This document shows positions 1-34,689 of a DNA stretch of 64,000 nucleotides, piece by piece. The stretch covers positions 1,240,001 to 1,304,000 of the forward strand of contig JAGTJL010000011.1 of assembly GCA_020746875.1 (NCBI GenBank), in the 5' to 3' direction. The notes under the pieces are model-generated. The model did not search any database and had not been told where the DNA came from. It saw only the letters and a program-made list of their open reading frames with translations. The translations under genes and the position numbers were made by a program. Numbering within the stretch: the first letter of the stretch is position 1; each line of letters opens with the position of its first letter. Source of the DNA: Rhexocercosporidium sp. MPI-PUGE-AT-0058 (Eukaryota; Ascomycota; Leotiomycetes; Helotiales).

Positions 1-44
1 ACACTAACAGTCCTCTCGGTAAAGGCTGACTGGCAGTATAGAGC

Positions 45-3900: not shown

Positions 3901-3910
3901 TTGCAGAGTT

Positions 3911-5240
3911 ATGTGCGCGAAAACCTTCGAGATTATAACTACTGTTCTATTGCGATTTTATACCTCGGACAACGCGCTGAATAATACTCTAGCTACTATC
4001 TGCGAAGCTGCACAAGCGACTGCTGCTGCTACTAGCTTCTTCGAACCAGTTATAATTAGGCTATAAGGGCCCGAGTTTATTAATAGAGGTTTTAGCGCGA
4101 ATAACCCAGTCGAGCAACTATAGAATAAGGCCTAGTATATTTAGTGTAGCAGTAGTAAAACGGAATTAAGTGCGCTGCTAAAGTGCTTTATCTTAGTTAG
4201 GACAAGCAATCTTAGGGGAAAGCTTATTGCTAAAGGATCTTTTAAATTCTTTACGGAGACTCTAGTTAGTATTATAACGCAAACAAAGGATATTGCGAAG
4301 GTATTTATAGAGAGGCACCGGCTATTATATAAGAATAGGTGCTATTTTAGATTTAATATTTAGCAAGGCTTCTAGGGCATCGTTTTAGAGGAGTATAAAG
4401 CCGCAGCCCTGATAGACGCAGCTACTACCGAGTATATAAATGGGCAGGACTTGAAGTCAGCCGCGCGAGAATGTGTTATGAACTTAAAGTAGAAGCATTA
4501 TATGTCTGCAGAATTAGATTCTCTTAGATAATGGAATACTGATACGCTTTAAGTTCTTCTTCAGTTCTGCCTAGAAGATATCATAAGGGTAAGCCCAGTA
4601 GAATTACTCATTTCTGAAGCCTGTAAGTAACGCGAGTGTTTAGTGGAATGATTCTAGGCGACGAATGAGTTATAATAAGTAAGTTATAATCTTTTTAAGA
4701 AGCTGAATTTGAAACCAAGTAAGGCAGAAGGTTATTACTACCTTTCCCTTTGATCGAAATGACGACCTTATGAATTGACATGATATATTCAAGGCCATAG
4801 ATCAGCTTCTTACCCTGCTATCACGTAGCCGGTCGATTGCACTCTGGGGTCTTAGGGGGTATAGGTACGTAAAGGGAATAACCTGCTGTTATCTATGCTA
4901 ATACGATCTGGTAAAACGCAGATTGCCTTGTATGCGTGTTGTCATCAAGACAGAACTTCGTGTTCTGTGTTCTGGGTACTTGCAGATTCTAAGGCTACGT
5001 TTACTCTGGATTATACCAAAATTACCAGGGTCGCAGGCAATCACCAGATCTAAAAGGCGAGGATCTGCTACGGGCAGTGCAGCAGTAGATTAAGCAGCAA
5101 ACCGATTGGCTCCTTATCCTCGATAACGCTGACGATTTGAGAATTTTCAAGACGATACCTAAGATGTTACCAAGGATGCTGCCATCACGAGACATAGATT
5201 CGAGGCGCGAAAGTGAAAAAGTGGGGCATCCAACGGAAAT
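3911..5240 (+). pseudogene. NB-ARC (NLR-type) gene relic
   Basis: One plus-strand frame from ATG 3911 reads for about 830 bases with many TAA/TAG codons and an otherwise protein-like text (for example EYKAAALIDAATTEYI). I cannot assign this N-terminal part to a family. From 4749 a clear NB-ARC module follows: PFDRNDDL and DIFKAIDQLL, then ALWGL leading to the P-loop, GKTQIAL at about 4911, CSVFWVLADSKATF, GEDLLRAV, and the Walker B block WLLILDNADD at about 5110-5140. This is the nucleotide-binding domain of fungal TPR/kinesin-light-chain-type NLRs. The P-loop is split by about 55 bases that look like a decayed intron, there is a frameshift near 5035, and several stops. The C-terminal repeat domain is not recognisable after 5240. 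Dead gene; the NB-ARC call is strong. Confidence 0.75.
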
Positions 5241-8200
5241 GATAGCAGTGAGGTGGTGGAGCAGCAGAGAAGGACGGCAGATGTAGCCCGTAAAGCAGGT
5301 CCTGGGAGTGCACAAGTTAACAGGTCTACAAAAGCCTCCGATCTCCCCCTTAATAGTCTATCCAGTTTGCATTCTTTATCTAGTAATCGGATTCCAAAGG
5401 CACTCTACTGCGTTTACTTTATTCTCAACATAACCGCCTTTGCTTTTGTTCACTACGATCCGAAGCCACCATCGAACACCAGTATTCGGAAATCCTCTTC
5501 CAAATCTAATAAGAATTTAGCAACCGACTCGAGCAGCGTACTAGCTAAAGCGCTACCAGGGTTAGGAAGAGCGGCAGGCGATAATAACTGGTATCAGCAA
5601 GTTATTAAAGATAGCGTGGCCAGAGTCCGAAGTGCACAGGTCTATAAGAATAATCTAATAGGAACTCAAGGCATATGTTCAAAAGAAAGTCTTATAATAG
5701 CTACTATACTTATCTGATTATACAGAAGCCTCGATAACAAAGAGGGATGGGTTTAATAATAGTACCGATAATGAATTTTCATTTTTAACACGATTACTGT
5801 TATAAAACTACAAGTTTGAATCGGCGGAAGAGCGACCGGCTATGGAGAGCACTGTAGGACAGGATGCCAATCAAGCTTTAAATAACATTCTTGGATCTCG
5901 TGGATCTCGAGCTGGTAGTACCTATAGTAAGCGAGCTGAGTTCCTTAAGTAGAATGCACAGAATCTTTGCTCACGAGATTACAAATAAACTAATTATATT
6001 ATATTACGATAACGAGTCGGAAGAGAATAATAATCTCGGTCCCGGACATGCTTATTACATTATAGAAAGTGAGTAACCAGGTTGTGATACCTTCGATATA
6101 GAACACCTACTTATACTTTCCACTTGTACAATCCACGAGCATAAGAATAATAGTAATAGCATCAATAAAACCATGCCTTATCAGACTATTAAAGGAACGA
6201 GGTCCAACTCTCCTCCTCTACCTCTACCTCACGTGATTATGTCATATCGCTGCTTCCTCGTAATAATAATGAGAAAGGCAGCAGAGAACTTATTACCGAT
6301 CCTGGCGAGTCGGGGGACGACATCTGCTCTAAGCGGCGGACGGTTTCCACTCCATAAGGCCGCAGGACAGTCTCCTGTAATAACCTATTGCAATTATCTA
6401 AGACTCTGTTAATAAGCGACAAGGATAATAAAAAAGATAATAGGACGCTTAATATTTCTCTCGACGCCAGACTTATTAGCTCTTCCAAAAGTACTCCTGT
6501 CTCTAAAGTTACTTCTTTAACAGAACTTAAAGTCTGCTTAATAATAACTGATATTAACTAGGACTAAGACGTTTATAAAATTATTAATAAAAAAGACCTT
6601 AATAATATTACATATTATCTAGTTGATTAGCACCTTATACTGCTGCCTAAGCACTCACTGGGATATGCAAAGGAGTTAGTAAATAAGTTCGAGGCCCGTA
6701 TTCGAGCACAACGCGGGGTCGAGCGAGGCTGACTAAGATCGAATACTAAACAGAAAGCTGGTGTGAAAGCTAAAGGGAAGAAAGCTCGAGGTCGGCCGCG
6801 GAAGCAAACGTAAAGAGAAGCGTTATTTAGCATATCTTTAGTAACTAAGTATTTTAGTAAATGCAATTTATTTAATTAAAGCCCTTTAATAATTTAACAA
6901 ATCTTATTTCTATTTGCTTCGTTTCCTATATCCTCGCGTTTAACCGAGTTAACGGATAAGGCTCCTAACTTATTATGCAAATCTTATTAAAAAGCAAACA
7001 TATATATAATACTATAAAATATCGTGCAAAGTAGTTATTTACTTCTACTAGTATTATACGTAAGATACCGGCTGCGCATATAAGCTTCGTTACGTTAATT
7101 CAAGAGTATATTTATACTAACTGTATTTTAGTATTAACGTGAGTTTTATGCTAATTATTTTCTAGTACTAATCTTTTTTAATACTAGAGATTTAGTAAGA
7201 ATAACCTGCTTAAGATTAATAAAGTCCGACACGGAATTAACTGCTACTCAGAGAGTATTATTAGCACAGCCCCTTTAATTTATAAGCATATCGATTATAA
7301 ATATAACGTCTTCAGACCTTCGAAATTGACTCTTATTTTATATCTCTGCTTATTATTTGTTTCGACGGTTTTTATACCTTAAATATTATCTAGATTAGTG
7401 AAAAGACACGATATTAAGTCCCCGACCGTACCTAAAGATCTTTAGCGTACCTAATACTTAATAACTTACGTCTTCTTAAAGCGATCTCCTGGTTTTCTAC
7501 CTTTTTAAAAGACTTGTTACGGAAATCAAGCTGCAAATCTGGTCTGAAGTACTGCTATTACCCAGGATTCTTGAATTCGAATTTCGGAATAATTACGTTA
7601 AGGTTCTAAAAAGCTTACATTAACCTTCTGCTTTCCTTAATATTAATAAAAAGTCGCGAGCCCTTTTCTTTTAGTTATACCGGAAGGTCGACTTACTTGT
7701 TTTAGCCGCTAATAATAAATCTTAAAAAATAACGGCTAAAGCAGTTTAGCACTTTAACCCGAAGATTAATACGATATATATTAATAATATTCCAATATAA
7801 CTAATATTAGTAAATTATTACCTTAATTAAATAGCTACTGAAATTTCTTTCAGGGAATTATAATTCCTTGCGATTAATTAGCCGTAGCACCAAAGGCACC
7901 GAGCCGAGTTAGTAATATTTTAATAAATGGTAATAAAAGGTTACTCTTTAAGGCAGCTTTAACGTATGCCGAACAAGGAACCTCCTTATTAATACTTGCT
8001 TTAGCACGCCGGCGGGCGAGAGTAATAAAGGCGGCAGGAAGGGGCATAAAGGAAGGAGTGCGAGGGCGAGGGACGGCGGCAAGCTATTATAATTAATTAA
8101 TATATTTTAATTCACTTAACTTCTTTATCTTTTGACTTAAATAATATCGAAAACTAAACTTAAAATAATAAAACATAAAGGAAATATACTTTTTTTACTA

Positions 8201-8459
8201 CGCGAGCAGCGGAAAGATTGGCGGCGCGAGCGGCGTTAATAGCCTTATAATAGGCAGAGATACGATTTATTTTAAGTTTAATATATTTATAAAAGAAAGT
8301 TATAATAAAAAGGCAGTTATTTATATACTCTTATTTACGCGTTTAATATATTTGCCTTAATTACTATTTGACGTTTTTCTTATTATTTATTATATTTATT
8401 AAGTACTTATTTACTTCGCTAAAGCTTAGTATTATCTTTAGCAAAAGGGTGTATTATAT
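5241..8459. other. Degraded AT-rich repeat DNA without an intact gene
   Basis: 5250-5720 holds a 154-codon open frame with no family signature and a Ser/Lys-rich text; I do not support it as a gene. 6880-8460 is strongly AT-rich with isolated GC-rich patches (around 8000-8090 and 8200-8240), typical of RIPed repeats. A possible transposase tail is listed separately at 6500-6880. Confidence 0.45.
6500..6880 (+). pseudogene. Possible DNA-transposase C-terminal remnant with an AT-hook-like motif
   Basis: In one plus frame the text runs from VTSLTELKVCLI (about 6510) through KELVNKFEARIRAQRGVERG (about 6665-6730) to KKARGRPRKQT (about 6775-6810). It is interrupted by a few stops and followed by AT-rich DNA. 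A basic tail with an RGRP AT-hook core after a helical segment is common at the C-terminus of fungal pogo/Fot1-like transposases. No DDE catalytic block could be read upstream, so the family is a guess. A TA-flanked MITE at 8468 would be the sort of element such a transposase mobilises, but no link is shown. Confidence 0.3.
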
Positions 8460-8460
8460 A

Positions 8461-8780
8461 AGTTATACAGTAAGGTGCCATGGAAGTTCGCACAGGTCCG
8501 TGCTGACCCACTTTACTGAGCCAACTAGATGCTCTGATTTCGCTGCCAAAAAGATATAATTGGTTCGGCGTGCACGTACCAGTGCGAACTTCCATGGCAC
8601 CTTACTGTAGTTAGCCAGTTAAGCGAGCCTAATCCAGAGCATTATAACTAAAGCGCTAGCAAGCTCTCTTATTCAGGGAGCTCGAATACACGATATATAA
8701 TAATTAAATATATAACTGCGCAACTTTAAATTAATTATCTTTTTTGCCTTTATAGAGCTTCAAGGCGTGTTTGCATAACA
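8461..8780 (+). repeat. Dispersed repeat R1, left copy (LTR-like), interrupted by a MITE
   Basis: After removal of the MITE at 8468-8607, the sequence GTTATAGTTAGCC... through GCGCTAGCAAGCTCTCTTAT to about 8771 aligns with 23192-23370 (GTTATGGTTAG..., GCGCTAGTAAGCTCTCTTAT). The copy may end with ATAACA at 8780, inverted to GTTATA at its start, as LTRs do. No partner LTR or coding part is attached here, so it could be a solo LTR. The differences between copies are mostly C/T or G/A, as RIP produces. Confidence 0.55.
8466..8609. mobile_element. MITE of about 140 bp with perfect 26-bp terminal inverted repeats and TA target duplication
   Basis: Bases 8468-8493 (CAGTAAGGTGCCATGG...) are the exact reverse complement of 8582-8607, and both sides are flanked by TA. 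The inverted repeat continues imperfectly inwards for about ten more bases. Ends beginning CAGT plus a TA duplication are typical of pogo/Fot1 (Tc1-mariner) elements. There is no coding capacity. The related repeat copy at 23192 shows the uninterrupted site (GTTATGGTTAG versus GTTATA-MITE-TAGTTAG), which confirms both borders. The element keeps normal base composition inside AT-rich DNA. Confidence 0.85.
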
Positions 8781-9323
8781 GAAATTCATTACGTAACTTT
8801 TGTCGGGTGATCCTGTGATTTATACCGCAGTACTCAGATAACGCATTAAAGAAACCTGCTAATTCATAAGTATATCCGGGGAGCTCTTAAGAGTTATACT
8901 CTTAGAATCTCTCTGGTTCTTAAGATTACCCTAGCTCTTAGAACACCTCCTCCTGGGGCCTAGTAATCGCCTAGGAGCGCTCGTAATATTAATCTTATAA
9001 TCGTATAAGCGATAAGAAGAGAGAATATTACTTTCTGCTTTAAAGAATATATAAGTCTATTCAGCGTATTCTGAAAGAATTATTAGTTTTGCGTTTAGTT
9101 CTTAAATAAAGATAATAAACTATGCGGGAGATTAACGACGTTAAATAAGTTCGATAATTAATTCCGTAATAATAATAGCTTTTACTTATTCTTAGCTCCG
9201 TTAATCGATTAAAGCATCGATTTTTTAAAAAGTAATTACGAATATCTTATTATTTGATTTCTGTTTACTTAATATATAAATAGCAGTAGTATTAATAAAA
9301 AAATCTTTATAGGCGAGGTATAG
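8781..9323. other. AT-rich non-coding DNA
   Basis: I see no gene or RNA signature. The composition matches RIPed repeat DNA. Confidence 0.5.
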
Positions 9324-9644
9324 AAGATTATATTAAGCATACCTTTCCATAACTTAACTACCTTTGCATAAAGCTCCGGCTTCCGTGCTTTAAACCTCGG
9401 AAGCTTTAGTTTCCGGTAAAAGGTTATTTAGGGCTAAAACAGTAGCTTTCGGAAGCCTTGGCTTCCGTGTTTTAAACCCCAGAAGCTCTGGTTTCCGGCA
9501 AGAGATTACTTTAACTCGTAAGCTCGCAAGCAAATACTCAATTAAGCAATACAAGCAAACATACACGTGATTAGCTAGAGTAGTTATATAGACCTAGAAA
9601 TCCCCCGTATAATACAATCATCATTCAAATCAAATGTCTTCTTT
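9324..9644 (+). repeat. Dispersed repeat R2, left copy
   Basis: This segment is the inverted partner of 40034-40293. Shared text includes AGATTATATTAAGCATACC, CTCGTAAGCTCGCAAGCAAAT, the CACGTGATTAGCTA block, and TCCCCCGTATAAT followed by AATCATCATTCA. The left copy is about 60 bp longer because a unit built around GGCTTCCGTG, TTTAAACC and GGTTTCCGG occurs twice (about 9381-9420 and 9455-9500) but once in the right copy. No coding frame. The element class is unknown; a solo LTR or non-autonomous element is possible. Confidence 0.7.
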
Positions 9645-9672
9645 TCAGTCTTCTATAGAGCAAGCGTCACAA

Positions 9673-10267
9673 ATAATATAATTAATTATAATCTTTTCTT
9701 TTTAATTAAATGATTTCTATAAAGAGAAATAATTGAAGAAAATAATATATTAATAATAACTTTATTAGACTTATTAAGAATTTTTTTATAATTTTAAAAC
9801 TATAAATTCGTCTCGCTACGGAGTGCGTCTCGCGACGCAGGGACAGACGTTACGTTTCATTGTATTCTATAAGTTACAGTGCAAGTCGACGCTTTGAAGT
9901 GGATCCTTTCCAATCCTGCCAGTGCCAGGCGGCAAACCTCAAAATAAAGTCTCAGACACAGACGGATCAGCTACACTTGGTTGACGAACAAACAATGGCC
10001 AAGTCATTTCCCTTCTTGTTTGGTCATTGCTCTTGTTGGCAGCCAATTCTTCTTTGAAGCTGTCCATTTTATTTTGTATCACATTGTCTAACGTCCGTCC
10101 CTGCGTCCCGAGACGCACCCTGTCACGAGACGAATCTATAATTTTGGAATCACAAATTTTTTCTTAATAAGTCTATAAAGTTGTTATTAATATATTACTT
10201 TCTTTAATTATTTCTCCTTAAGGAGACCACTTAGCAATAAGAAAAAGAGTATAGTTAATTATACTAT
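9673..10267. mobile_element. 595-bp palindromic element with about 178-bp inverted arms and an unmutated core
   Basis: Left arm 9673-9851 and right arm 10090-10267 are inverted copies. Both carry GAAATAATT, TAATATATTAATAA, ACTTATTAAGAA, and an inner GC-rich block with GTGCGTCTCG and CGCAGGGAC. The outer arms are AT-rich and diverged by transitions. The core 9852-10089 has ordinary composition and contains GTGGATCCTTTCC. The design fits a non-autonomous TIR element. A half copy (inner arm block plus start of the core) recurs at 12739-12830, which shows it is a repeated family. No transposase and no certain target duplication are seen. Confidence 0.65.
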
Positions 10268-12996: not shown

Positions 12997-13950
12997 TTAC
13001 ATTCTTCTTCTAGCTCCCGAGGGACGCCTACCGTCTCCGAGGATGTTATCTCTCTCGAGCCAGTCGTCTCGGAATCGAACACGGCCGTCCTCATCATCCT
13101 CACTAGACAATGCGAGTACTTCAGCAAGCGCCTCCACGTCTCCAGGATAGTCTAGAATGGGCACACTCTCGTCTTCCGAAAAATCTTGAGCAGGAGGACG
13201 AGCAGCCAGGATTGCTCCTATCGATGCCAGGTTTGCTTCTAGTGCCGATTGCCGCTGCTCTCGTCGCTCCACTTGGCCATCCTCCCTCTGGTGTAGCTCT
13301 ACCTGTGCTCGTTCCCGAGCTCCATCACGTCGCCGCGCGTGATCTGCCTCTCCTCGAGCTCTATCTGCTCGTCTGTTCTGCTCTATCAGTGGATCGATCC
13401 TAGCTTGAATCTCACCTCGTCGGTTGCTGAGTTCGCCTACTTGTATAAGTGAAGACTCGGTCATGGGAGAGTCCAGTGTGAAACAGGTCCAGCAGATTTG
13501 CAAAATCGCCTGGTTAACGTCAGCCAGTGCGGTTAAATCTTCTGGACGGACCCCATCCATCTCGTTGGGTGTTCTTCTCAGGACGGCCAGTCTCTCGATT
13601 GTCTGCTCAGCGCCCCAGACAATTTGCACTATTGCCATTTGGGGAGAAAGGTCTGGTGCCAGTCCGTACATTTCTCTTCTGTCGCGCCAACTACGCTCTT
13701 GCGCGTCGGTATTTGGCGGAGTGGGAGCAGCTCGTACGCGGTTCCAGAGATCGAGGAACTCGGTAGCTTGCGGCTCTGATCTGTCTCTTAGCATGGAAAG
13801 GTAGCTCTGGACATCTTCCTCGAGCGTCCAAGGTTGTAGGACGTTGGGTCCCACAACAGGAGCTTGAGCGAAGTCTCTGGCTCGGACTCGGCTTGCCACC
13901 CATTGCTGGAAGGTAGGAACTGGTGTTTGATCGATGGATGAAGATGGCAT
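12997..13950 (-). CDS. Hypothetical coiled-coil protein, 317 aa, single exon
   Basis: The frame is open from 14058, but I chose ATG 13950 because it has a good context (CTACAACAATGCC) and the upstream part reads like a leader that may contain a 5'-UTR intron (GTATGT near 14012, ATCAG near 13968). The N-terminal half is mixed helical sequence with a WTLEEDVQSYLSML and ATEFLDLWNRV type text. Residues about 180-245 are an unbroken charged helix, rich in Arg, Glu, Ala and Gln with heptad-like spacing (ARIDPLIEQNRRADRARGEA and on), predicted coiled coil. The tail is acidic (DFSEDESVPILDYPGDVEAL) and ends in basic residues (GARRRM). No catalytic motif is visible. It is transcribed away from the tetra-SUMO gene, whose start lies 1.3 kb away. 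Family not recognised; intactness argues that it is real. Confidence 0.55.
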   Translation of the reverse strand: MPSSSIDQTPVPTFQQWVASRVRARDFAQAPVVGPNVLQPWTLEEDVQSYLSMLRDRSEPQATEFLDLWNRVRAAPTPPNTDAQERSWRDRREMYGLAPDLSPQMAIVQIVWGAEQTIERLAVLRRTPNEMDGVRPEDLTALADVNQAILQICWTCFTLDSPMTESSLIQVGELSNRRGEIQARIDPLIEQNRRADRARGEADHARRRDGARERAQVELHQREDGQVERREQRQSALEANLASIGAILAARPPAQDFSEDESVPILDYPGDVEALAEVLALSSEDDEDGRVRFRDDWLERDNILGDGRRPSGARRRM

Positions 13951-15287
13951 TGTTGTAGATTTGACTGATGTGTTGATGAGCTGGGTTTCTGGAGGATTGT
14001 GAGTGAAGTTACATACCCTAGAATTCCGAGGTGTTCTGACTCGAAGATATCTGTTCAACTGCGACTAGTAATTGTTTTGATCTTGTTTTCCTACCATGTC
14101 TCCAGGACTTGGCCCAGAACTATTGTTTTGCAAGTGGTACACTTGAAGCAATACACTGCATCGATATCAGTATGTAACGAATGAGCAACAGAATAATGCC
14201 TTTGTTCTATGTTCTGATTTTTCGTTACTTTGTTCCGCGAGGATCACAAACAGCCGACTTACCTGCACAAGCCTTACAGAAGGAGCTAGACTCTAAGAAG
14301 ATCACTTTGTCAGAGAGATGATTAACAGCCTGTCAAAGAGTATTACAACACGGCCCAGATATGACCGAGTTATTTTGAGCGAGATAATATCCCAAACAAA
14401 GAAGAAATAGAATCCATTCTTGATCACGTGGTTTGGCGATTCTTCTGGATCGATTGAACCGCAGCGTCCAGTTCAGTACTTTCAAACGAAACCATGCGCA
14501 GAAAATCTGCAAAGCTGATCATCAAACGCTTTTCCACCACTCACTTTTACTATTGGATCTCTTGAGTGAATCTGTTGATTTCAAGAAGGTTGTTAGTCTT
14601 CTGGCTCCAACCTTATCTCCGATGAACAAATCGCGCTTCGCATCGGATCGCGTCACTGCGACAACCAACATCTATAGACACAATCCTTCTCTGAGCTCCA
14701 CGAACCAAGAAAGAAAAGAATATCAAGCTTACTGCCGCCCTGGAAACATCTGCAATTCTATCAGGAGGCAAAGCATCCCAAGTGAATCGAATCGACGTGT
14801 TCTGTTTCCAATTGCGACAGTTCCTTATCCTGCTTATCGGAAACCAACATCCGCGCAGCCTCGCCCCTCCAGCTTTCCCTGCAGCCTGCTCTCGAAGCAA
14901 ACACAACTACCTCCTCATCTTCTACACGATTCGACTGAGCTTCTTTTGGTCTCTGGCCTCTTTCCGCGAATACCATTGCACATTATTTTACCCTTCCCGA
15001 GTCGTCTTCTCTACGAATAAAGAAACAAACAAAAGCTCAGCCTTGCAGCCTTCTCTTAAGCTTCACCTCTCAACAAGGCCAGCTGCTATTCACTGTAAGT
15101 TTGCTACCATACTTCATCTCGATCCAGACTCGAAGGCTTGCAGTTTGACTTCTATCGCCTACCAACGCTTCCACTTCTTTAACTTGCACACTTCCCTCTC
15201 GATTACTAGGCTAGCAGACTGATCTCTACTCTCCACAGCCGCCGTTGTTACCTATACACACACACACTGACCTTCGAATTAACAACC
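13951..15287. other. Divergent intergenic region upstream of the tetra-SUMO gene
   Basis: Several overlapping open frames (14433-15020, 14782-15222) occur here, but their texts are low-complexity Ser/Pro/Leu without a family signature, and frames on both strands compete. It is best read as promoter and 5'-UTR. Pyrimidine-rich runs and an ACACACACACAC run at about 15257 precede the ATG at 15288. Confidence 0.45.
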
Positions 15288-16683
15288 ATGTCTGAACACA
15301 ATACACCGGAAGCCCCAGCAGGCAGTTCAGCTCCTGCCGAAGCCCCCGAGGCAAAGCCAGAGCAGAAGCCCGGAAGCTTGGAGATTAAGATAAAGGATCA
15401 GAACGAGAATGAGACGTTCTTTCGTATCAAGAAGCATACCAAACTCGGCAAGGTCTTCGAGGCTTACTGCAATCGACAGTCACTCACCCGCAATACTGTC
15501 CGCTTCCTCTTTGAAGGTACTCGTGTTCAAGAGAATGACACACCGGAGGGTCTGGATATTGAGGACGGCGACATGATACAGGCGGTTTTGGAGCAGGTTG
15601 GCGGAGAGGGCACAGCAGAGCCTGTTGCCCCTGGCGCCGCCGCAGCCGCAGCAGAGGATGAGAAGCCACAAGAGAAGGTCGGAGCTATCAGCATCAAGGT
15701 CAAGGACCAGAACGAGAATGAGACCTTCTTCAAGATCAAGAATCACACAAAGTTAGGCAAAGTCTTCGATGCATACTGCGAACGTCAGTCTCTGGCCCGG
15801 AACACTGTCCGATTCTTGTTCGAGGGTGCTAGAATCCAAGACACCGATACCCCAGAGACTTTGGAGATGCAGGATGGTGATATGGTGCAAGCCATGCTCG
15901 AGCAAGTTGGTGGTGCGGCGGAGGTCGAGGCAGGCGCTGCTGCTGCTGAGAAGCCAGAGCAAAAGTCCGAGGGTGGAGAACACATCAGCATCAAGGTCAC
16001 GGACCAGTCGAGACAAGAGATCGTTTTCAAAGTCAAGCGCACTACTCAATTCAAGAAGGTGATGAATGCGTACTGCCAACGCCAAGGACTCGATATGAAG
16101 GCCGTTCGTTTCTTGTTCGATGGAGACAGACTTCAAGAGGATGAGACACCTGCTTTGAAGGAAATGGAGGATGGCGACGTCATCGAGGTATTCCTGGAGC
16201 AAATTGGAGGCGCAACTGATGAGGAGATGGAAGGTGGTGGTGGAGAGGCAAAGCCAGAGCCGCAAAGAATGTCCATCAAAGTGAAGGATTCCCGCGGAGA
16301 AGAGGTTGAGTTCAAGTGCAAGAGCACTACTGTCCTCAAGAAGTGAGTTGATCTGGCACCGGCCATTTCTTTCTTTTCGAGTCTCTAGTGAGCTTTACCC
16401 TCCAAATTGCTTCTCTGCTAAGAGAAATGCTGACTTCTCATCCAGACTCATGGATGCCTTTTGTCAACAACAAGGCCGTAGGCTCGATTCTCTTCGTTTC
16501 TTTACACCGGATGGAAAGCGGATCAATAATACTGATACCCCTGCATCACTAAATTTGGAGGATGGAGATCTCATTGACGTTCATGAGGAGCAGCAAGGTG
16601 GTGGCGATCAGGTCTTTTATTTTCCTTGCAAACATGGAAATGAGTTCACGAATTTTTTGACGATGCAACGATACCATGACTGA
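15288..16683 (+). CDS. Tetra-SUMO protein: four tandem SUMO domains, each with a Gly-Gly end, 430 aa
   Basis: ATG 15288 has a strong context (ACAACCATGTC). Exon 1 is 15288-16342, the intron 16343-16445 (GTGAGT...CATCCAG, 103 nt) and exon 2 is 16446-16683; 1293 nt in total. After a Pro/Ala/Glu-rich leader (1-30) come four SUMO folds at about 31-106, 133-209, 233-308 and 328-404. Each has the SIM-binding beta strand (FFRIK, FFKIK, VFKVK, EFKCK), the AYC/AFC helix, RFLFEG-like strands (RFFTPDG in the fourth), DTP/ETP, DGD, and the C-termini EQVGG, EQVGG, EQIGG and EEQQGG. Linkers of about 24-26 residues are Ala/Glu/Lys/Gly-rich. A 26-residue tail follows the last Gly-Gly, as in SUMO precursors. 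Ordinary fungal SUMO is a single domain of about 90-100 aa, so this is not the housekeeping copy. It could be a precursor cut by Ulp proteases or a fixed polySUMO-like scaffold; sequence alone cannot decide. Confidence 0.9.
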
Positions 16684-17116
16684 AGGACATTTTCTCTTCT
16701 TTATTCTGAGATTTTGCGGCAGATGTCGCAGAGTAGCTGAGCATCACGGACACATGGAGCGGAGCAGATCTTGCTATTTTCACGGGCGCAAATGGGGCAA
16801 ACGATCTGGACAGGCGTTTACAGATTCTGCGCTTTGCGTTACTTTATTCAGATCATCGATGTTTTCTACGCATAGTATATTAATACAAAATTCTGCAAAA
16901 TTTGTTTATCTTCATCAGTTCGCGGTGTCCTAAATCCTTTTTCATCGTCAATGCCAATTCATTCAGATAACAGCTTTTCCAACGGGAAATATTAGTCGGC
17001 CAGAGGTCAACAAATAGGCGAATAACGATGCAAAACTCGCGTACCGCCTATTCTCGTATGGTTCTCATCTCATCACAAAAACCAAAAAGTATTAGTCAAA
17101 GAGTCGTTTCATTCGT
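16684..17116. other. 3' flank of the tetra-SUMO gene
   Basis: No gene is seen. The 85-codon frame at 16676-16933 overlaps the SUMO stop and has no family text. Confidence 0.5.
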
Positions 17117-17389
17117 CTAGAACCTCTCTCCCTTCTCCCCATCAGCCACACTTCCCCCCCTCTCCCTCTCACCCTCCTCCCTCGCCCGTCGTCTCCTCTC
17201 CCTCCTCCGTCTAAACCGTCTACAATGCTCACAATAGCCACTCGCGCCCTTCGGCGGCTCTACAAAACAGACCAACAGATCTGGACATTCTTCTGGGATA
17301 TAGCCGGATAGTGATTGCGACTCGCAGCAGTACATTACGCCTGTTGTGTGCTTGCAGTGGATGTGGTGGATGTTGGCGTGTTCGCACAT
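17117..17389 (-). CDS. Small Cys-rich protein with an Arg/Glu-rich tail, 90 aa
   Basis: ATG 17389 follows CCCCTCTACA, an acceptable context. Residues 1-60 contain eight cysteines and several histidines: MCEHANIHHIHCKH, MYCCESQS, EECPDLLVCF and GYCEHC. Spacing of the C-x2-C and CxxH type suggests metal binding. Residues 62-82 are almost only Arg and Glu (FRRRRERRRRAREEGERER), a charged helix or possible nuclear/RNA-binding tail. Short Cys/His proteins starting MC(x)H are common but uncharacterised in filamentous fungi. No signal peptide. It could be a first exon of something longer, though the stop is in frame and no splice partner was found. Moderate confidence. Confidence 0.45.
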   Translation of the reverse strand: MCEHANIHHIHCKHTTGVMYCCESQSLSGYIPEECPDLLVCFVEPPKGASGYCEHCRRFRRRRERRRRAREEGERERGGSVADGEKGERF

Positions 17390-18060
17390 TGTAGAGGGGA
17401 CTAGGTGGGGTTGGGTATATAGTGTTAAAATTACTGGGTGGCTTGAGTTAGGTTGTAAGTTTGTGTTGTGTATGTATGTATGTAAGTGTGTTTGAATTTT
17501 GTTTCAGGGGAGAGGGAGGCTGGCCGGTATAGCTTAATATACTGAATGAGAACAATGGGGTTGTGAAGTTCTTTGCTGTTGAAACAGTTGAAAGCTTTGG
17601 ATTAAAAAAGGCGGCATTGTTCTTTGCCTTGTAATGTCTTTCTTGGATGGGACAATAGCTCTTGTCTGCCTGATCGAGGACTTTGTTCTTTTTGATGGTC
17701 TCCTATTTGGCCGTCCTAGCATTCCTGAGGCTCGGCCTCTCAATTGAGCGAGTTACAGTCGATATACTGCGGACTTGTTCACTTCATGGAAAAGCTTGAT
17801 GCAAGTTTTGGTGTTCAAAAATTAGATATTTGAATCTTCGTGTTTGTCTAGTATTGCTGACTTCCTACATCCCCATAAACGCCACCGTTTCGAGTGACCT
17901 GTATATCCCCTTGTATTCTAAAATTACATCTTCTAAGTATTTATCTCAACGCTTTCTCTCATCCTTCAACCAGTATCTACCTGAAAGCAATGGTCTCCCG
18001 TTTTGTCAGGGTGTCAGGAGTGGAATCTAGTATAAGAAGGGTCGGGGGTTCTACGGAAGG
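17390..18060. other. Intergenic DNA up to the edge of the retroelement block
   Basis: Normal composition with no supported gene. At about 18060-18100 the sequence switches abruptly to AT-rich DNA just after TCACGTGTTAATATC. Confidence 0.5.
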
Positions 18061-18069
18061 TTTACAGGC

Positions 18070-21000
18070 TTAGCATAAATCACGTGTTAATATCTTTATT
18101 TATTTACTTTAAAGGGAAGTAAAAAGGATTTAAAAGGCCAGAAATTAGTTTAAATTATAATTAATATACTTTAAACGTTTTAAATAATAATTCCTTATTA
18201 TTTAAACCTTATATTTTGATTTCTTTATTTATATAAAAATAATTCATTACTTATTTAAAGCTTTTATAAAACAATTATAATAATTAAAAACAAAAAAAAG
18301 ACAACTTTAGCGGCAAAAGAGATATTACAATTATCTTTACTTTATTTTATTAATTAATTATTAAATACCTTTTAAAATAATTATAAAAATAGTTCGCTCA
18401 CGCGTAGCGAGTAATTCTAGCGCTTTAACGGAGGTTTAAAAGGTCTTATAAATAACGACGAAAGAGGCTCGAATGCCGAAGAAGCTATTAAAGCTAAGCG
18501 ACGACGAATCTTAGAAATTTAAGCATAAATTAAGCGAAAAAAAAAGAGAAGGTAATTCGGAATCGAATCGAAGAGTTAGAAGAAGTAATGCGGGAACAAG
18601 AGGACTTAAAGAAAGAGCTAGCGAATATAATATAAAAGGAATAAGAAGAGAAGAAAGGCAGAGGATATATAAAGGGAGGAAAGCGTCGACGCGCGAATAC
18701 GGCCGGGGACCGCTATCGTAACGAACTTATAAGACCTTTTCGAGATGACTTCGAAATACGTTTAATACCGCATCGACGAATCCCAAAGATGCGAGAGCTT
18801 TTAATATATAAAGGCAAGAGCGCTAAAGAGGCTTAGTCTTTTATTTAAAGTATTAATTAGAGGTTCCGTTAAGATAAAAAGATAATATATATTATAAATA
18901 AAGATAAGATTAATAAATGCGTTCTTGCTTTCGATAAGAAAGTGAAACGAAGGTAGACCGGGTTCGAATCGAAGGCTAAGACAAACTTACTTATTTAAAA
19001 AGGGTTTAAATAATAAATACTAAACTTAATTATAAACCCTGGAAATCGAGAGCTTGCGGTGTTTAATCGGTATAAAAACGCTTAATAGCGCGAGAATAAG
19101 TCGGTAAATAATTTCGTGTCTTTTCTTAATAACTTAAAATAATAATTAAAGATTAAAAACGATACGGCGAGATAACGGACCGTTTACGCTAAACTAAAGC
19201 CTGAGTTAAAGAAAGAAATTACTAAACTTAATATTATTAAAATCACTAAAACTTACGAAGAGCTAGTATCTTTAGCTCGTCGTATTAAAAATGCTAATAA
19301 AGTAAATAATTAAAATAAACTCCGAAAGAATACCGATAAGGCTCTGAAAAAGGATAACAATCGCCCTCGTAGTAATAAGCTATCTTATATCTTTTCTTTA
19401 AACTTAGACCGAAGGCAAGACGAGTTCAGTAACACGAATCGGACTCTTATCGGTGCTAGGTCGGGGGCAGAAGGATCGAGTAGTAAGGAATGCTACCGCT
19501 GCAAAAAGCCAGGCCACTTAGCAGCAAAATGCCCGGAGGTTATATAAATAATATAATATATAACGAGTTCCGTATAAAGTTCATAATATACGCGATTACC
19601 GAAAAGATCTCACTCGACCGCTAATTCGACAATATATACGAGAAAGTCTTAAATAAGCTTAAGTATAATATTCGTATTAAGAAATATAAACTCGCCGGAG
19701 ATTACACGGCTTTTATCGAATTCTTAGCCGTATTAAACTATAAACTACGAAATATTATTATTAGACGGGCTTATAAACGTATTATTATCGCTATTCGCGA
19801 AATACCCCGAGTCTCTTTTTATAATATAAATATTAACGACTCGCGTAGTATTTTAAAAAAGGAAAACTAGCGTATAACTTCTCCTTCGCCGGCTACTAGC
19901 GCATAAAGACTCCCGATCTTAAGACAGTCGCCGGATATCCGCTAGCGTACGCCCTTTCTTTCGCTTGTTTTACGCCGACTTAAGTCCTTTATATTTCTTT
20001 TTGCATTTAAAGACGTCTTCTCCGATACTTACTTTTATTATAATAAGACCGGCTATTAGGCTAGCGATTATCTTAAGCGCCGTAGAAATTAAGCTCTCGA
20101 TAAGTTAATTTCCTAATTAGTCGTCGGCGAAGACTTAGAAATTAACGAGCTATTAAAAAACTCTTAAGCCGTAATAAAGACTTATACCTTAGCGTAAGCT
20201 ATAACTTATAAAAGAACTTAATATTTAATTTCCGTATTTTTATTAAAAAACGATAATTCTTAATTAATATTAAATTAAGAAAGAATAGATTCTTTATTAA
20301 AATACTTATATATATTAATAGCGAAGCGAATATTTTCGGTATAATTAAAACTTTTCTTATATACCGACTTATTAAATAATTTCATATTTCTTTCGTAATA
20401 CTCTTTTAATTAATCGTCCTAATTAGTTATAATAATAGAAAAAGCAAGCTAATCGATACGGCCGTTTTACTTACTTTAATTATTAATCGCCGGCGAATTA
20501 ACTTCCTTTTTCTAATAATTGACTTAAGAAATACCGACGTCTTAATTAATCGGAAGTTCCTTAAGTATTACGACTTAAAGTAATTATATATAAAGAACCG
20601 TAATTAGCTAAAATAGCTATTAAATATACTTATATAGCTGTACTTTAATTAGCGAGTTTTCGTTAATATTAACTATTTCAATAAGCTAATCGTTAAGTCT
20701 TATTAGCTTAATATAAAATAAAAGAACGTTTTTATAAATATAAATAATTATCGCCGAAAGTAAGCTAAGCTTGCGGCAGTCGACGATTTTTTTAAAATAA
20801 ATATCTTTATACGACTTACTGCCAGCGTCTCGCCGACTCGTCCTTCGAGCTTTACTAAAGAAATTAAAAAACGCTTGCGTATTATAAAAGATTAATTAAA
20901 CCTTTTAATATTTTTTTTAATCCGGTATTATTATTTAAAAATAAAAGAACTTCTAAAGCTCTCCCGGCGAATCACTAATTAAAGGCGCTTATAATAGAGA

Positions 21001-23182
21001 TTTTCTTAATATCGGTAATAGCGATATTTATGACGTACCTCCGATTTAAGAAAGTTAAAAAAAATAATATAAAAACTTTCGTAATATCGGTGTATAAAAT
21101 CGATTAAGAGCTGACTCGCCGCCGGCGAAAGGCTTTAAACTAATTAAGTATCGAACTCGCATCGATAAATAAAGACTTATTCTTAAAAGAAGCTTTAAAA
21201 GCTAAATACGTATAAAATAATAAATTAATAAATAAAAAGCTTTTTATTAAGTATTAAGAATATATTCTTTTCTTTTCCCGGCGAGCCTCCGACGAGTTAT
21301 TAACGCATCGCTAGAGCGTAGATTATTAAATCGAGCTTATTAAGGAAAACGACTTATCCTTTGAATTTCTCCGACGTATAATTAAAAAAATAATTATTAA
21401 AGATTAAGCAATATATTATCAATAACTTATATAAAGGCTTTATCGAGCCTTTTAGCGCATTATATACGGCCTTTATCTTTTTCGCTAAAAAAGCCGATAG
21501 CAATCTCCGATTATACGTCGATTACCGGAAGCTGAATGCCTTATTTAAGAAGGACTCGTACCCGATCTCTTTAATTAATAAGATAATAATACGTATGTAT
21601 AAAATAAAGGGTTTCATAAAGCTTAATATTTAATAAGCTTTTTACTATATTTATATATCTCTTAAGAGCGAAGATTATACGACTTTCCGGACTCGATATA
21701 ATACGTATAAATATAAAATCCTTTTTTTTAATTTTATTAACGATTCGACGACTTTTTAGCGATTTATTAACGAGATTTTAATAAAATACCTCGACGATTT
21801 CTGCGCGGCTTATATAAATAATATTCTTATATATTCGCTTACTCCCGAAGAGCACGAGGTTCACGTTAAGAAGTAATAATAATATTATAAATATACGGAC
21901 TTTAAGCCGATATTAAAATATCCGAGTTTAACGTATAAAAGATAAGGTTTTTAAGTTTTATTATCGGCGTTAATAATATAAAAATAGACTTAGAAAAGGT
22001 TAACGTAATTAAGAATTAATAATACGCCGGCAACGTACGAGGCGTATAAAACTACTTTGGTTTCTGTAATTTCTATCGCCGGTTTATTAAGGATTATAAT
22101 CGTATCGCTCGACTCCTTATAATGCTTACCGGGAAGGATATGCTTTTTAACTTCGATAACGCTTATAAAAACGCGTAAGAAATTCTTTAGGAAGTCTTTT
22201 AATTTATATTAGTTTTTTATTATTATAACTCGATAAAGTAGACGCGGCTGAAAACCGACTCTTTAAATAAGGTCGTTGCCGGAATCTTATTTTAAATATA
22301 AGAAAACGGCACTTATTACTTAATAAGATACTTTTTTAAGATTATAATAAACTTTAAGTTAAATTACTTTATTTATGATAAAGAAATACTAACGATTTTC
22401 TAGTTATTTAAGTAATATCGCTTAAAGCTCTTAAATACTTAGAAAAATATCTTTATTTATATAGACTATCGAGCTTTAAAATACTTTATAATTATTAAAG
22501 ACTTTACGACTAAGCAAGCTCGATAAGCTAAATTCTTCGCGGATTTCTATTTTATAATTATATATTGCACCGGAATAACGAATATATTAATTAATACCTT
22601 ATCTTAACAGGATTAAGACTTTACGATGATAGAAGCACGTAAGCGAGCTATTCATAATTAAAAATTAATTTTAACTAATAAAATTAACTAAAGAATCGCT
22701 AGCGATCTTCAGCTTCTCGCCGGCGATTATATAAATATTTATATCGAAGTCGTAAAAATAATATATTTAATACTTATAAAAGCCTTAATCCCGGGGAACG
22801 GACTAGAGCCCGAGCTAAACGTAAGAGTGCTAATGGACTTAGAGACTCTTACTGCGGAAGAGCTTAACCCGAATTTTATAATAGCTTATAATATTATAAA
22901 ATACGATATTATTAATTAAATACTCTTAATTAATAAGTCGTCGCCTTCGCTAAAGCTTTTCCGACAAAAAGCTAAGGAATAGTCGTTAGATTACGAGTTA
23001 GTAAATAATAAATTGCTTTTCTAAAGACGCTTAAAAATACTTTTAAAACCGCCGGAGCTTCGCACAATATTAATTCGATACATATACTCTTAGCTATTAA
23101 TAGCATATGCAGGGATCGGAAAAATAAAGGTATTATTAAGCCGCAAATATTATTAAAATAGCTTTATTACGGATATAGCTCG
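18070..23182 (+). mobile_element. Ty3/gypsy LTR-retrotransposon relic, RIP-degraded, truncated in integrase
   Basis: Plus-strand reading with scattered stops gives the gag-pol order. A charged coiled coil lies at about 18480-18640, then gag text (RPFRDDFEIRLIPHRRIPK at about 18740) and a CCHC zinc knuckle CYRCKKPGHLAAKC at about 19491-19533. Reverse transcriptase follows, with LYVDYRKLNA at about 21508 and [17 protein letters not shown] at about 21788. An RNase H-type block with LKYFIIIKDFTTKQAR, YCTGITN and LS.QD lies at about 22470-22620. The start of integrase (GIGKIKVLLSRKYY) is near 23110-23160. It stops at about 23182, where repeat R1 begins. No LTR could be recognised at the left end. 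It is clearly related to, but inverted relative to, the element at 27554-34286. All frames are dead. Confidence 0.85.
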
Positions 23183-23191
23183 TGTCGTGCA

Positions 23192-23370
23192 GGTTATGGT
23201 TAGTTGGCTAAGCAAGCTTAATTAAGACTATTAAAACCATGGCGCTAGTAAGCTCTCTTATTTAAGGAGCTTGAATACGCTATACGTAATAATATAATAA
23301 TAGTCATATACGTAATTACGCAGCCTTTAATTGACTTAATATTTGCTTTTATGGAGCCTTAAGGTATGTT
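23192..23370 (+). repeat. Dispersed repeat R1, right copy
   Basis: Uninterrupted homologue of 8461-8771. It starts GTTATGGTTAGTTGGCTAAG at the point where the gypsy relic ends, so it is probably the terminal part (LTR) of an element that inserted into or joined the gypsy integrase. It also serves as the empty-site reference for the MITE at 8468. Confidence 0.55.
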
Positions 23371-23379
23371 ACACGATAG

Positions 23380-26300
23380 TTATGAGCCCCGTGAGCTATA
23401 AAAGCTTTTTAATCGTATATATACGCCGACGTGGCTTTATAGAGGTATTTTATATCGCTATTTAAAAGCTGTCGCAACTCTTTAAACTCGTCGATAACTC
23501 TTAAATTATTAAATATTCTCGACGCTATATTATTAATATATCTTAAATAAATAATATCGCTTTTAAAATTATTTACGGACTGCACCTTAAAGGCACGGAA
23601 GGATTAAGCGACATAACACTTGCGATTGAATTTTTATATTGCGTTTATAAATATATTAAATATGATAAACTTTGCCGCTCTTATAATAAGCTATATTCTA
23701 GAACTTTGATTAAAGGCTTTAACGCTTAAGAGCACCGCTTAATAAGTAGTAAAGATATAGTTAAACTAATATTACGTTAATATTATAGCTTAGAAAATAA
23801 TAAACTTATAGCCGTCTTTAACGCTTAAGTCGTTTAATAAAGATATTTTAATAAAAAGAATAAGTCTAAAAGAAGCTAGTCTACTTTTTTACTTAATAAT
23901 TACAGAAATATAATAAATTTATATAATATAAGCTAGGGAGTATTAGTATACGCTAGCTAAATGAACGAGCTAAAACAATAAGTATATGGCTTTATATAAC
24001 TGGCTCTCCGAAACGGTAGACGACTCGTTCTTGGACTTTGCGATTAGGAAATTAATCGGTAAAAGTAAATTAAATATATAATCGTTAATTAGTACACTTT
24101 AGCGCGATATAGCACCGTTAAAATCGTTAGTTTTTACTATTATAGTTACGGAATACGAAAAGGTTTTGAAGGAAGTATATAAAGGAAAAGTCAACGTTAA
24201 TTAATAAATAAAAGACTTTTTAAAAGCTTATAAGAATATTAAGGCGTATAATATACCTGACGTTAAAGGCATTATAGCTTTAAAAAAGTAGCTACGTGTA
24301 ATAAGAGCTTATATATACTTAAATTAAGTAAATTTTATTTTTAATATAATTATACGCAACGATTAACTTAAAAAAAGCATGAGTTTATTTTTAATAATTA
24401 TATATAAGTACTTTTCGGCATAGATTAAGAGTATATTATATTTAAGAAGCCTAAGCATTAAGGAGGAGAAGGCGGTTAATATTTAACCCTTGGAGGAATT
24501 AATATTAATATATCGGATATAAACTTTAATAGATCTCGTTCTCGAGGCTAAAGTAGTTTATACTTATGCGATATGAATAATAAGCATTTCTTTAAGCCGC
24601 TTAAGTATTAAAGACTACGTTATATAATTAACGGAACGACTTTTAAAAGCATAAAGTATATATTAAATACTAATAAAGTATTAATAATTCGTAAAAAATT
24701 AGAAATTATAGATTTTAAAGAGCTTAAAATAATTATAATTAAAGAAAGATAAAAGTATATCGTAGTCGCTAAAATTACCGGAGCTAATTATAATAATAAC
24801 TCTAAACTTATTATAAATGCCAAATCACTTAATACCGCTGTACTTATAAGTAATAAAAGCAAAGGCAAAGCTTTATAAGATAGTTTAAATATTAATATAA
24901 TTATAATCGACTTAAAGCTCTTTAACGATATACTTTACAATAAGGCTTTAAGTCTTAGCATTTATATTATTATAAAGTTTTAACGCTACCTTCTGTTAAA
25001 TAGCACGCTTATTAATAATTTCGGTATTATTTACTGAGTTAATAGTATTAATAAACTCATCCTCGTCAGTTTTAAACGTATTACAGGAGATATAATTAAT
25101 ATTAATACTTTAAGTTTATTAATTATTAATAAGAGTATACGCATCTTCGAAAACGCTTTATATAATCCTAAAGGATTATATACTCGGAATTTAATATTGA
25201 GTAACGTGGCTATTATGAAAGGGTTTAACGTTAATATTATTTTTAAGAGCTTCCTCATATAATCGGGGATATAGTATAATAATATTAATACGACTTTATA
25301 AGTAGTAGTATTAAAGATAGCTATATAATAAGAAACTTATAGCGTAGGTAGAACCTTATAATATTTAAATATAAGCCTGTTAATAATTGCTCGCGCTCTT
25401 TATAATTATATGCCTTTATAAAAGCTCGTAGATCTCCTATTATAATAATGTATTTAATAATTAGTAGACGACTGCACCCTCTTAAGAAGTATATTTTTTA
25501 ATTAATACGTAGTTTTTTACGACCTTAAAGTAATATAATATAAATATGGTACTTACGCGCCGGTTACCTCGGTAAAATGGCTTTAGAAGCTTTAATAAAG
25601 TATATACGTAATATTTAAATTAATAGAATTACGCGTATAAAATATAAAAGTTATATTATAATATACTTAGGTTAATAACTATTGCGTAAAGAGTTAAATA
25701 ATAAGTCTTTAAGACCTTTTTTTAAAATCGTATAAGACTTATTTAACTACTTTATAAATTATAATAAGATATATTAATTATTATTAATTAAAGACGAATA
25801 TAATGGAAAGCTCTTCGCATTTACGCTTATTAGTAAATCCTAAGACTTTATTATAAGCGTACTTAAGACGTTTAAGATATAGACTAAACGCTAATACGGC
25901 CTTATTATATATAAAATTAAGTTTAATAACGACACGTCGGTAATTAGCATAAGATACTGGACTAAGTATAATTAATAAGCATTAAATAGTGGCATAAAAC
26001 TGGAGCTTACTCTGGTTTATACGTATAAGCCAAATAAAAATATAAAAAGAGCTGGCGAAGAGCTTATTATTAAAGCTTTAAAAATAATAATAAGTATTAA
26101 CTTATTATTTAAGTTATAACTAGAAGCTATTTTAATAGTTGCGTACCTTTATAATATATTATTACTTATTAAAAGAGTTATATAATTACTAAACGAAATA
26201 TTAAAAATATAATTTAAATAATATTTTTGATAATACGACTTAAAAGTAGTAAAGAGACTGCTAGTCGATTTAAGGCTTAATTAAAGTAATATTTTTACGT

Positions 26301-27280
26301 ATAATATTAAAGCCTACGCAATAATTAAAGACCGATAAGTTCTTCGTAATAAAAGAGGCTTTAAGGTTAATCTTAAGGGGCATATTAAATACTTAATTAA
26401 CTATTGCGTAATTAATATATATAGGATTTGAATACCTTAACTAAAGTATATAATACGTACTTAAAACGTTATTTTTAATAAGGTATAGTTTTATAATAAG
26501 TAAGCAGTAGTCGGCTAACTATTATTAATACTTAAATAAGTCGTTAATATACTTGTAAAGACTAAAGCCGCTTAAGACGCCGAGTTAGCTATTAAATACG
26601 TAAAAAACGAATATATATAAGTTAAAAATAATATTAAATTAGACAAATTATTATCTGACTCGATGGAAGTCGACGAAGTTTTTAAGGAGGTAGTTTTATA
26701 CGTAATTATAAAGCTTATAACTTTAAAAGAAGCGGAATTACTTGTTTTACGAAAGCACTAAAATAAGCTAGTTCTTTTGAATTCACGAGTTAATACGTTA
26801 AAAGATAATATAAAGCTTAATAATAACGATATAAATATTTTAATAATATTAAAAAGCTTAAGTATATTAAGATAAACTCGAAGTTAAACACGACGAAACG
26901 AACATTTCGAGCCTAAGAGGAGTATTATAAGTAGGAAATAATTACTTTAAATTAAGGGTGCGCATAACTCAATACTTTAAGTTATAATTTAAAATAAATT
27001 ATAAAACAGCTAGAATTAATTATTACGTTAAACTAAAGTAATTAGTATAAGCTTTGGAAATGCTTTAGAGTACGAAAACACCTCGTTAAAGGAGGATTTC
27101 TGTAACGTGGCTGAGAGTAGAGCTCACACCAGTACGCCATCGGAGTCAAAAGACTACAGTATTCGGCCTTAAGGCAGAATACGCTCTACTTGGTACATAT
27201 ACTAATGAAGAGAATAGCCTCACGTGATAAACACATGACAATTACGGCAAGCCTGAAGAAGATTAATAACTCCTTTTGGA
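23380..27280 (+). mobile_element. Ty1/copia retrotransposon relic with PPT and 3' LTR start
   Basis: The plus strand shows copia polyprotein fragments in shifting frames. LVDDCT (integrase core, from the usual FVDDYTR) lies at about 25450. KRAGEELIIKALKI near 26040-26080 comes from the usual NGRAERAGG block. The post-integrase block KVNLKGHIKYLINYCV.NIYRI lies near 26360-26430. No reverse transcriptase is readable, so the 3' part of pol seems lost. A polypurine tract AAAGGAGGA (27088-27096) is followed at 27101 by TGTAACGTGGCTGAGAG, the expected start of a 3' LTR, and this LTR piece has nearly normal composition. Heavy TAA/TAG load and AT-richness indicate RIP. I cannot find the matching 5' LTR. 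Confidence 0.7.
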
Positions 27281-27553
27281 AAATATACCGTTAAATATAT
27301 TATTATAATATTTTTTTAAAAATAATATAACTTAAAAAACCCTCGACGAAATGCTTTAAGTATTAAACTAAAGTTAATTTCGCCTTATTACTCGAGTTCA
27401 GCGGAGACGTTAAGTAAAAGAAGTAATATAATTAAATAAACGGTTTAAGAGTGTTAATTGCACTATGTTGCCTATCCCTCCCGGTAATAAGTAACAACTT
27501 AGTCAATTGTGGTGAGACTCGATTACATAATGCAAAGCTTTGGTTGTATTTTA

Positions 27554-27808
27554 TGTTACGGCTGGCTAGAGGTTAATACGGTGCAAAAGATAGCTTTATA
27601 TTTAGACTTAAAGCTACGCTCAGAATTAAAAAGAAAAGATAAAGAGAAAAGGAGAGCTCTTTATAAAAGGGAGCTCTAGTATAAATACACAAAGGGTCTC
27701 CTTAGCCTTTCCCGATTAAGCCTAGCGCTATAGTTGCCATGTTAAGGCGATACTATAAGTAATGCCGAGCTCACTCGGTTAAAATATAAGGCGCTAAAAA
27801 TCGTAATA
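27554..27808 (-). repeat. 3' LTR of the gypsy element (255 bp)
   Basis: Aligns over its full length with 34032-34286. Ends TGTTACG and CGTAATA (mutated from CGTAACA). Shared blocks include GAGCTCTAGTATAAATA, CCTTTCCCGATTA and GCCTAGCGCTATAGTTGCCA. Differences between the two LTRs are almost all transitions, so divergence here reflects RIP rather than age. Confidence 0.9.
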
Positions 27809-33800: not shown

Positions 33801-34031
33801 TCGAAGTCGAAGTTCGAATAGCGCGCGTTAAGTTATATAAGATAAGTTGACGGCAGGGAGTTTTCTAGCTTTCTTTAAGGCAATTTATTATTAATAAAAA
33901 AGTACTTATTTATTAAATAAGCTAAAGTATTAAAGTTCGTCGTTAACTTATTATAAAAGTAAGGAAACGTGACGCGTAAGACTTAGTAAAATATAACGCT
34001 TTATAACGAAGGGATTCTTAGTCTTTTCTTA

Positions 34032-34286
34032 TATTACGGCTAACTAAAAGTTAATACGGTATAAGAGATAGCTTTATATTTAAACCTAAAGCTACGCTTA
34101 AAATCAAAAAGAAAAGACAAAGAGAAAAGGAAAGCTTTCTATAAGAGAGAGCTCTAGTATAAATATATAAAGGGTCCCCCTAGCCTTTCCCGATTAGGCC
34201 TAGCGCTATAGTTGCCATGCCAAGGCGATGCTACGAGCGATGCCGAGCTCACTCGGTTAGAATACGAGGCGCCAAGAATCGTAACA
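34032..34286 (-). repeat. 5' LTR of the gypsy element (255 bp)
   Basis: Same length as the partner at 27554-27808. It begins TATTACGG (mutated TGTTACGG) and ends CGTAACA, followed directly by the TTTTA target duplication. Confidence 0.9.
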
Positions 34287-34660: not shown

Positions 34661-34689
34661 TACAAGCTGCACAATTAAATGAAGTCGAC

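Follow-up and report, generated by a model that had tools for sequence, protein, structure and literature searches.

The locus considered here raises the question of why a filamentous fungus should carry four SUMO domains in one reading frame, either as a precursor from which separate modifiers would be released or as a chain that is left whole. The window, i.e. the whole stretch of 64,000 nucleotides that was analyzed, spans positions 1240001-1304000 of contig C3 in an assembly of 62.7 Mb and 60 contigs. Translation of the joined exons of the gene (Table 1) yields a product of 430 aa without an internal stop, with the 103-nt intron between them being predicted from its sequence signals. The gene sits in five one-kb bins (13001-18000) that do not display RIP-type dinucleotide indices, and is flanked by AT-rich blocks that do, in 18 of 18 one-kb bins on one side (18001-36000) and in 8 of 10 on the other (1-10000). 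Further along the window are two ORFs with HET domains (heterokaryon incompatibility; 44058-45653 and 47733-48554), the second of these matches being slightly under the Pfam cut-off. The presence of a HET-domain ORF, along with the AT-rich blocks of RIP type, suggests that the host is a filamentous ascomycete.

Table 1. Features of the tandem SUMO gene, numbered by position in the window
Feature	Positions	Strand	Details
Possible 5' UTR intron	15095..15238	+	GTAAGT ... CTCCACAG; inference, by eye only
Tandem SUMO gene	15288-16342 + 16446-16683	+	start ATG 15288, stop TGA, one predicted intron
SUMO unit 1	15288..15605	+	29-aa N-tail (AKPEQK) + core 15375-15605; GG codons 15600-15605, then Glu
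SUMO unit 2	15606..15914	+	26-aa tail/linker (EKPQEK) + core 15684-15914; GG codons 15909-15914, then Ala
SUMO unit 3	15915..16211	+	22-aa tail/linker (EKPEQK) + core 15981-16211; GG codons 16206-16211, then Ala
SUMO unit 4, exon-1 part	16212..16342	+	18-aa tail/linker (AKPE) + first strands of core
Predicted intron, 103 nt	16343..16445	+	GTGAGT donor, CTGAC branch-like site 16430-16434, CAG acceptor
SUMO unit 4, exon-2 part	16446..16602	+	GG codons 16597-16602, then Gly
C-terminal extension, 26 aa, past last GG, and TGA stop	16603..16683	+	frame translation

The Pfam Rad60-SLD profile (PF11976) detected four stretches in the product (E 4.9e-79), with the cores at residues 30-106, 133-209, 232-308 and 327-404. 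This bears out the description in an earlier note on this DNA, which had read four SUMO folds, each ending in Gly-Gly, from a single frame of 430 aa. In a sequence search of PDB, the top matches of the full product were SUMO chains and SUMO-tagged fusions (among the best 60 of 156 matches), headed by 4bkg, a linear diSUMO-2, and the exon-2 stretch (16447-16602, 52 aa) matched SUMO chains by itself. A structure model of unit 3, the sole unit modelled singly, displayed a SUMO fold (mean pLDDT 80.8); all 50 PDB matches listed for it were SUMO chains or SUMO fusions, as judged by title or by sequence match, with an rmsd <2 Angstrom in 45 and a target TM of at least 0.90 in 40 of them. The model of exon 1 (351 aa), for which the input alignment had 6 rows, all of them from the same genome, contained three folds with pLDDT <50 between them (1-27, 103-131, 206-230 and 303-351), and the linkers are accordingly predicted by this model to be disordered. 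Given its low overall confidence (mean pLDDT 58.3, pTM 0.29, the third domain reaching only about 55-65), it is suited solely to placing the borders of the domains. The structures matched by its fold were linear ubiquitin chains, USP7 and ISG15; these matches stem from the number of beta-grasp domains and are uninformative on their arrangement. An identity of the product with polyubiquitin was rejected, as it scored 260.6 bits against PF11976 versus 132.5 against the ubiquitin family, and its PDB matches were SUMOs.

The C-terminal Gln-x-Gly-Gly, which is the maturation and charging end of the SUMO family, is present in all four units, in the form of EQVGG, EQVGG, EQIGG and EEQQGG, with the following residue being E, A, A and G, respectively. 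None of the four has a proline after the Gly-Gly, a residue that reportedly inhibits the cutting of fusions by SUMO proteases when in this position (PMC8863084). As in a polyubiquitin-like precursor, there are thus several modifier units in one frame, with each Gly-Gly followed by a cleavable residue. Invariant columns in the alignment of the units number 4 among the last 5 and 20 among the remaining 72, and the invariance of the GG end is therefore not special by itself, being common to 20 further columns. The Gly-Gly codons are GGC GGA, GGT GGT, GGA GGC and GGT GGT in units 1 to 4. That four Gln-x-Gly-Gly ends have been preserved through this synonymous turnover, despite freely changed codons, favors a precursor over an uncut scaffold, which would have no need of them and for which they would be superfluous.

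The segments between the cores had at first been taken as Ala/Glu/Lys spacers of 24-26 residues, a description that has to be revised on both counts. With the present core bounds they measure 26, 22 and 18 residues, and every one of them carries KPE or KPQ at the position of the tail motif, as anchored by an alignment with the SMT3 of the host (EKPEG) and yeast Smt3 (AKPEVKPEVKPE). KP[EQ] occurs in all four tails but in only 1 of 100,000 within-tail shuffles, with the caveat that the motif was picked after alignment; local alignments of the individual tails with the host SMT3 tail were not significant (shuffle fractions 0.16, 0.57, 0.28 and 0.71). The sequences are hence suggestive of a resemblance to SUMO N-terminal tails. 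The flexible, lysine-bearing N-terminal tail of the SUMO family would thus have its counterpart in each unit, as marked by KP[EQ] in 4 of 4 and by low pLDDT in the exon-1 model. With tail-like linkers, every unit has the appearance of a complete SUMO, with tail, core and GG, which is the pattern expected from head-to-tail duplication of a SUMO gene and again favors an Ulp-cleaved precursor over an uncut tetra-SUMO.

The units have diverged considerably, with 39-75% identity between their cores. Units 1 and 2 are the closest, at 75% in protein and 72% in DNA (over 226 nt). In each of the six pairs of units, synonymous differences have reached saturation or come close to it (pS 0.69-0.81), with a Jukes-Cantor dS that is infinite in four pairs and 1.96-2.39 in the other two, whereas pN is 0.17-0.42 and lies far under pS in each (pS 0.81 and pN 0.17 for units 1 and 2). 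In the latter pair, the 68 differences over 229 bases comprise 36 transitions, 7 of them in RIP context, and 32 transversions. Third positions at all conserved residues show 17 transitions and 15 transversions, and the 20 fourfold sites show 11 transversions, 3 transitions and 6 unchanged positions. RIP as a fast source of these synonymous differences was rejected in light of the many transversions and the mere 7 of 68 changes in RIP context. The synonymous saturation, the abundance of transversions and the paucity of RIP-type changes together indicate, at the level of sequence, that the four-unit array is old and constrained at the protein level. Relatives are accordingly predicted in other fungi. 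Pattern searches for relatives gave no confirmed case among 35 matches in prokaryote genome contigs and 9 in viral contigs, as is expected of a fungal gene.

These figures also bear on whether the locus could be a conjugation-dead relic or an artefact, such as a pseudogene, an assembly error or fused copies. A lone copy adjoining RIP-affected AT-rich DNA is what such an explanation would have in its favor. However, the four-unit frame is open, the excess of pS over pN extends to every pair of units and the intron signals are canonical. Duplication or collapse of SUMO copies in the assembly, which the earlier note had named as a way in which its reading could fail, was rejected since even the closest pair of units shares no more than the above 72% of its DNA. 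Hence, we regard a relic or artefact as very improbable.

The genome of the host has a single copy of the tandem gene, among four matches scored. The same note would have been refuted if all fungi of the group used this gene as their only SUMO, and for the host this is answered by an ordinary, single-unit SMT3 on contig C4, which has one predicted intron at a different position and ends in EQIGGGN. The cores of the tandem units are 51-58% identical to that of this SMT3, and yeast Smt3, human SUMO1 and human SUMO2 are all more distant from each of the four; the cores of host SMT3 and yeast Smt3 are themselves 58% identical over 76 columns. In a tree of 8 rows, only one of five inner branches was firm (units 1 and 2, 100/99). 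The placement of units 3 and 4 relative to SMT3 was not resolved, and units 1+2 and unit 3 grouped weakly with the human SUMOs (58/81). As the tree is largely without firm branches, we do not propose an order for the duplications. Past the last Gly-Gly of the tandem gene, the frame (16603-16683) has a CAG at the position of the TAG of host SMT3, as would result from the loss of a stop; the host SMT3 ends right after GGGN, whereas the frame of the tandem gene continues for 26 aa.

Other components of the SUMO system were detected in the same genome. A Ulp1-type protease on contig C2 has as its best PDB matches 6dg4, titled 'Ulp1-like SUMO protease' (E 3.3e-46), and then yeast Ulp1 (1euv, E 9e-23), and a Ubc9 on contig C34 was identified by its GTVCLSIL motif. 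A genome with SMT3, Ubc9 and a protease of the Ulp1 type would have at its disposal the enzymes that mature and conjugate SUMO. There are also 13 ThiF-type matches, unsorted as to E1 subunits, and two MIZ-finger matches. Matches to the C48 (Ulp) family number nine, of which the one on contig C2 was compared with PDB and the others were judged by eye; this is more than expected from the Ulp1, Ulp2 and NEDP1 types that such a genome should have. A probable polyubiquitin array, in the form of three untranslated matches at 228-nt spacing, lies on contig C60. Some further ORFs were noted as well. An 874-aa ORF (contig C12:734823-735242) appears by eye to combine a sirtuin domain with a following Ulp-type C48 protease domain. 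A 1029-aa ORF (contig C13:342000-347500) has an NLR-like P-loop (GLGGIGKS) and a terminal ubiquitin-like domain, and by eye a further exon would let it finish in LRMRGG; an NLR-like-ubiquitin fusion with a GG end would be unusual. A short ORF (contig C45:2370062-2370247) contains a SUMO-like domain that scores weakly (25.3 bits against a cut-off of 23.8) and has HELIGC at the position of the GG, beyond which the ORF continues, and a ubiquitin-like ORF (contig C59:514640-514852) ends in LRMTGC in place of GG.

Of the two readings that had been offered for the locus, a precursor and an uncut chain, both are sound, and the sequence evidence leans to the former. We consider it probable that the gene encodes a SUMO polyprotein from which Ulp1 releases four isoforms. 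One mRNA would be translated into four complete and non-identical SUMOs, head to tail; a Ulp1-type protease would cut past each Gly-Gly to release four isoforms, every one bearing an N-terminal tail of its own, and the mature GG end of each released unit would be charged by E1. The final 26 residues would be discarded if Ulp cuts after the last Gly-Gly, and the four isoforms would supplement the ordinary SMT3 made from another contig. Expression, cleavage, E1 charging and conjugation of the units are what we infer from the above features.

Under the uncut reading, the whole protein would be a multivalent platform for proteins with multiple SIMs, such as STUbLs, much like the head-to-tail fusions made in the laboratory. 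Phe37, Lys40 and Thr43 (yeast numbering), which we take to form the SIM groove of SUMO, are kept in all four units, and the exon-1 model has flexible linkers between the folds. Moreover, SIM binding of RNF4 to isopeptide SUMO chains agrees with values from head-to-tail linear fusions (PMC4083429). However, positions near the groove vary (Ile35 to Thr and Arg46 to Gly in units 1 and 2, Ile39 to Cys in unit 4), and a Ulp1-type protease is encoded in the genome. Given also the tail-like linkers, which fit complete SUMO units, and the preserved GG ends, we view an uncut tetra-SUMO as unlikely.

The residues that presumably contact the protease fit the favored precursor reading with some exceptions. 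Arg64 and Arg71 of yeast Smt3, which we take to be Ulp1 contacts, are kept in all four units. Other positions depart from yeast Smt3, namely Arg46 to Gly, Asp68 to Glu, Glu90 to Gln and His92 to Val or Met in units 1 and 2, and Ile39 to Cys and Ile96 to Gln in unit 4, which also has one residue extra in its central hairpin (FFTPDG versus FLF-DG). As these departures fall on what we take to be contact faces, some of the units are perhaps poor substrates of the whole machinery. Together with the differences between the GG ends (EQVGG, EQIGG and EEQQGG), the change of Asp68 to Glu on the presumed protease and E2 faces of units 1 and 2 is consistent with a mixed product, in which only part of the junctions are cut to give mono- and oligo-SUMOs with different fates. 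A three-SUMO form could also come about through retention of the intron, as by frame reading this would bring a stop immediately past 'VLKK' and leave three SUMOs and a stump. The positive evidence for such a mixture consists of sequence differences, and we deem it distinctly improbable.

The position equivalent to Asp68 of yeast is of further interest to the precursor reading, as it is Glu in units 1 and 2 and Asp in units 3 and 4, and presumably Glu in human SUMO1 and Asp in SUMO2. Among the matches of the unit 3 model is 9gnx, which by its title is SUMO1 E67D with SENP5, and we take residue 67 of SUMO1 to be the equivalent of Asp68. The split between Glu and Asp gives a hint that one unit does not simply substitute for another. 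It is conceivable, though we would stop just short of calling it probable, that a single transcript of the precursor gives rise to four different SUMO paralogues, all of them conjugatable and in a fixed ratio, with units 1 and 2 carrying the Glu of SUMO1 and units 3 and 4 the Asp of SUMO2, and diversity arising via proteolysis rather than from separate genes.

Several known systems resemble this arrangement in part. Rad60, Esc2 and NIP45 have several SUMO-like domains of the same Pfam family per protein, which to our knowledge lack the GG. The tandem units differ from these in being GG-ended in 4 of 4, and the host has a separate Esc2/Rad60-like ORF on contig C12, which ends in VEVHIQ without GG. 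In polyubiquitin, the head-to-tail, GG-ended modifier units are near-identical and joined directly, whereas the fungal SUMO units, though likewise head to tail with GG ends, are diverged, and each has a tail of its own, with linkers of 18-26 aa. According to PMC11371177, hydrolases convert polyubiquitin to monomers. Linear SUMO-2 fusions made in the laboratory, such as 4bkg (named linear diSUMO-2 in PMC4083429), are likewise peptide-linked SUMO chains, but are engineered from identical units, whereas the tandem gene is natural and its units are non-identical and have tails.

A likeness is also seen with SUMO-like concatemers of grass genomes, namely DSUL of maize and, at the GSUL2 locus, two genes of rice (Os07g38700 and Os07g38710), in which SUMO-like domains also lie head to tail in one protein and ordinary SUMO genes are found elsewhere (PMC6680281). 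The paper describes them as independent fusions that its authors think to be very recent, several of them without an internal or terminal GG. The fungal gene, compared with these plant proteins by description only, carries GG in every one of its four units, which diverged long ago and have tail-like linkers. We infer an origin independent of the grass locus, since the units are closest to host SMT3 among the four SUMOs compared, although the tree leaves units 3 and 4 and SMT3 unresolved. The proposal of the earlier note, that under either reading SUMO is delivered in a novel manner, was consequently too strong, in that concatenated SUMO genes were known already, several of those in grasses differing by their lack of GG ends (PMC6680281, as above). 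In fungi, most have one SUMO gene and some more than one, polyphyletically, according to PMC6638150, and the supplementary tree of that paper may include such a gene. A literature search over titles and abstract openings, its scope lying outside most subscription papers and bioRxiv preprints, gave no tandem or fused fungal SUMO among the matches listed. With grass concatemers known and no fungal case among those matches, only the variant and not the kind is new: as far as seen, this is a fungal gene with four units that all end in GG. The suggestive likeness of the linkers to SUMO tails is also newly noted here.

Should the protein be left whole, it would be the natural equivalent of the linear poly-SUMO chains that serve as laboratory reagents. 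If it is a precursor, a filamentous fungus would have five SUMO species, offering a ready test of paralogue discrimination by Ulp proteases, E1 and SIM readers, and fungi would be the second setting, besides grasses, in which SUMO has gone the way of polyubiquitin.
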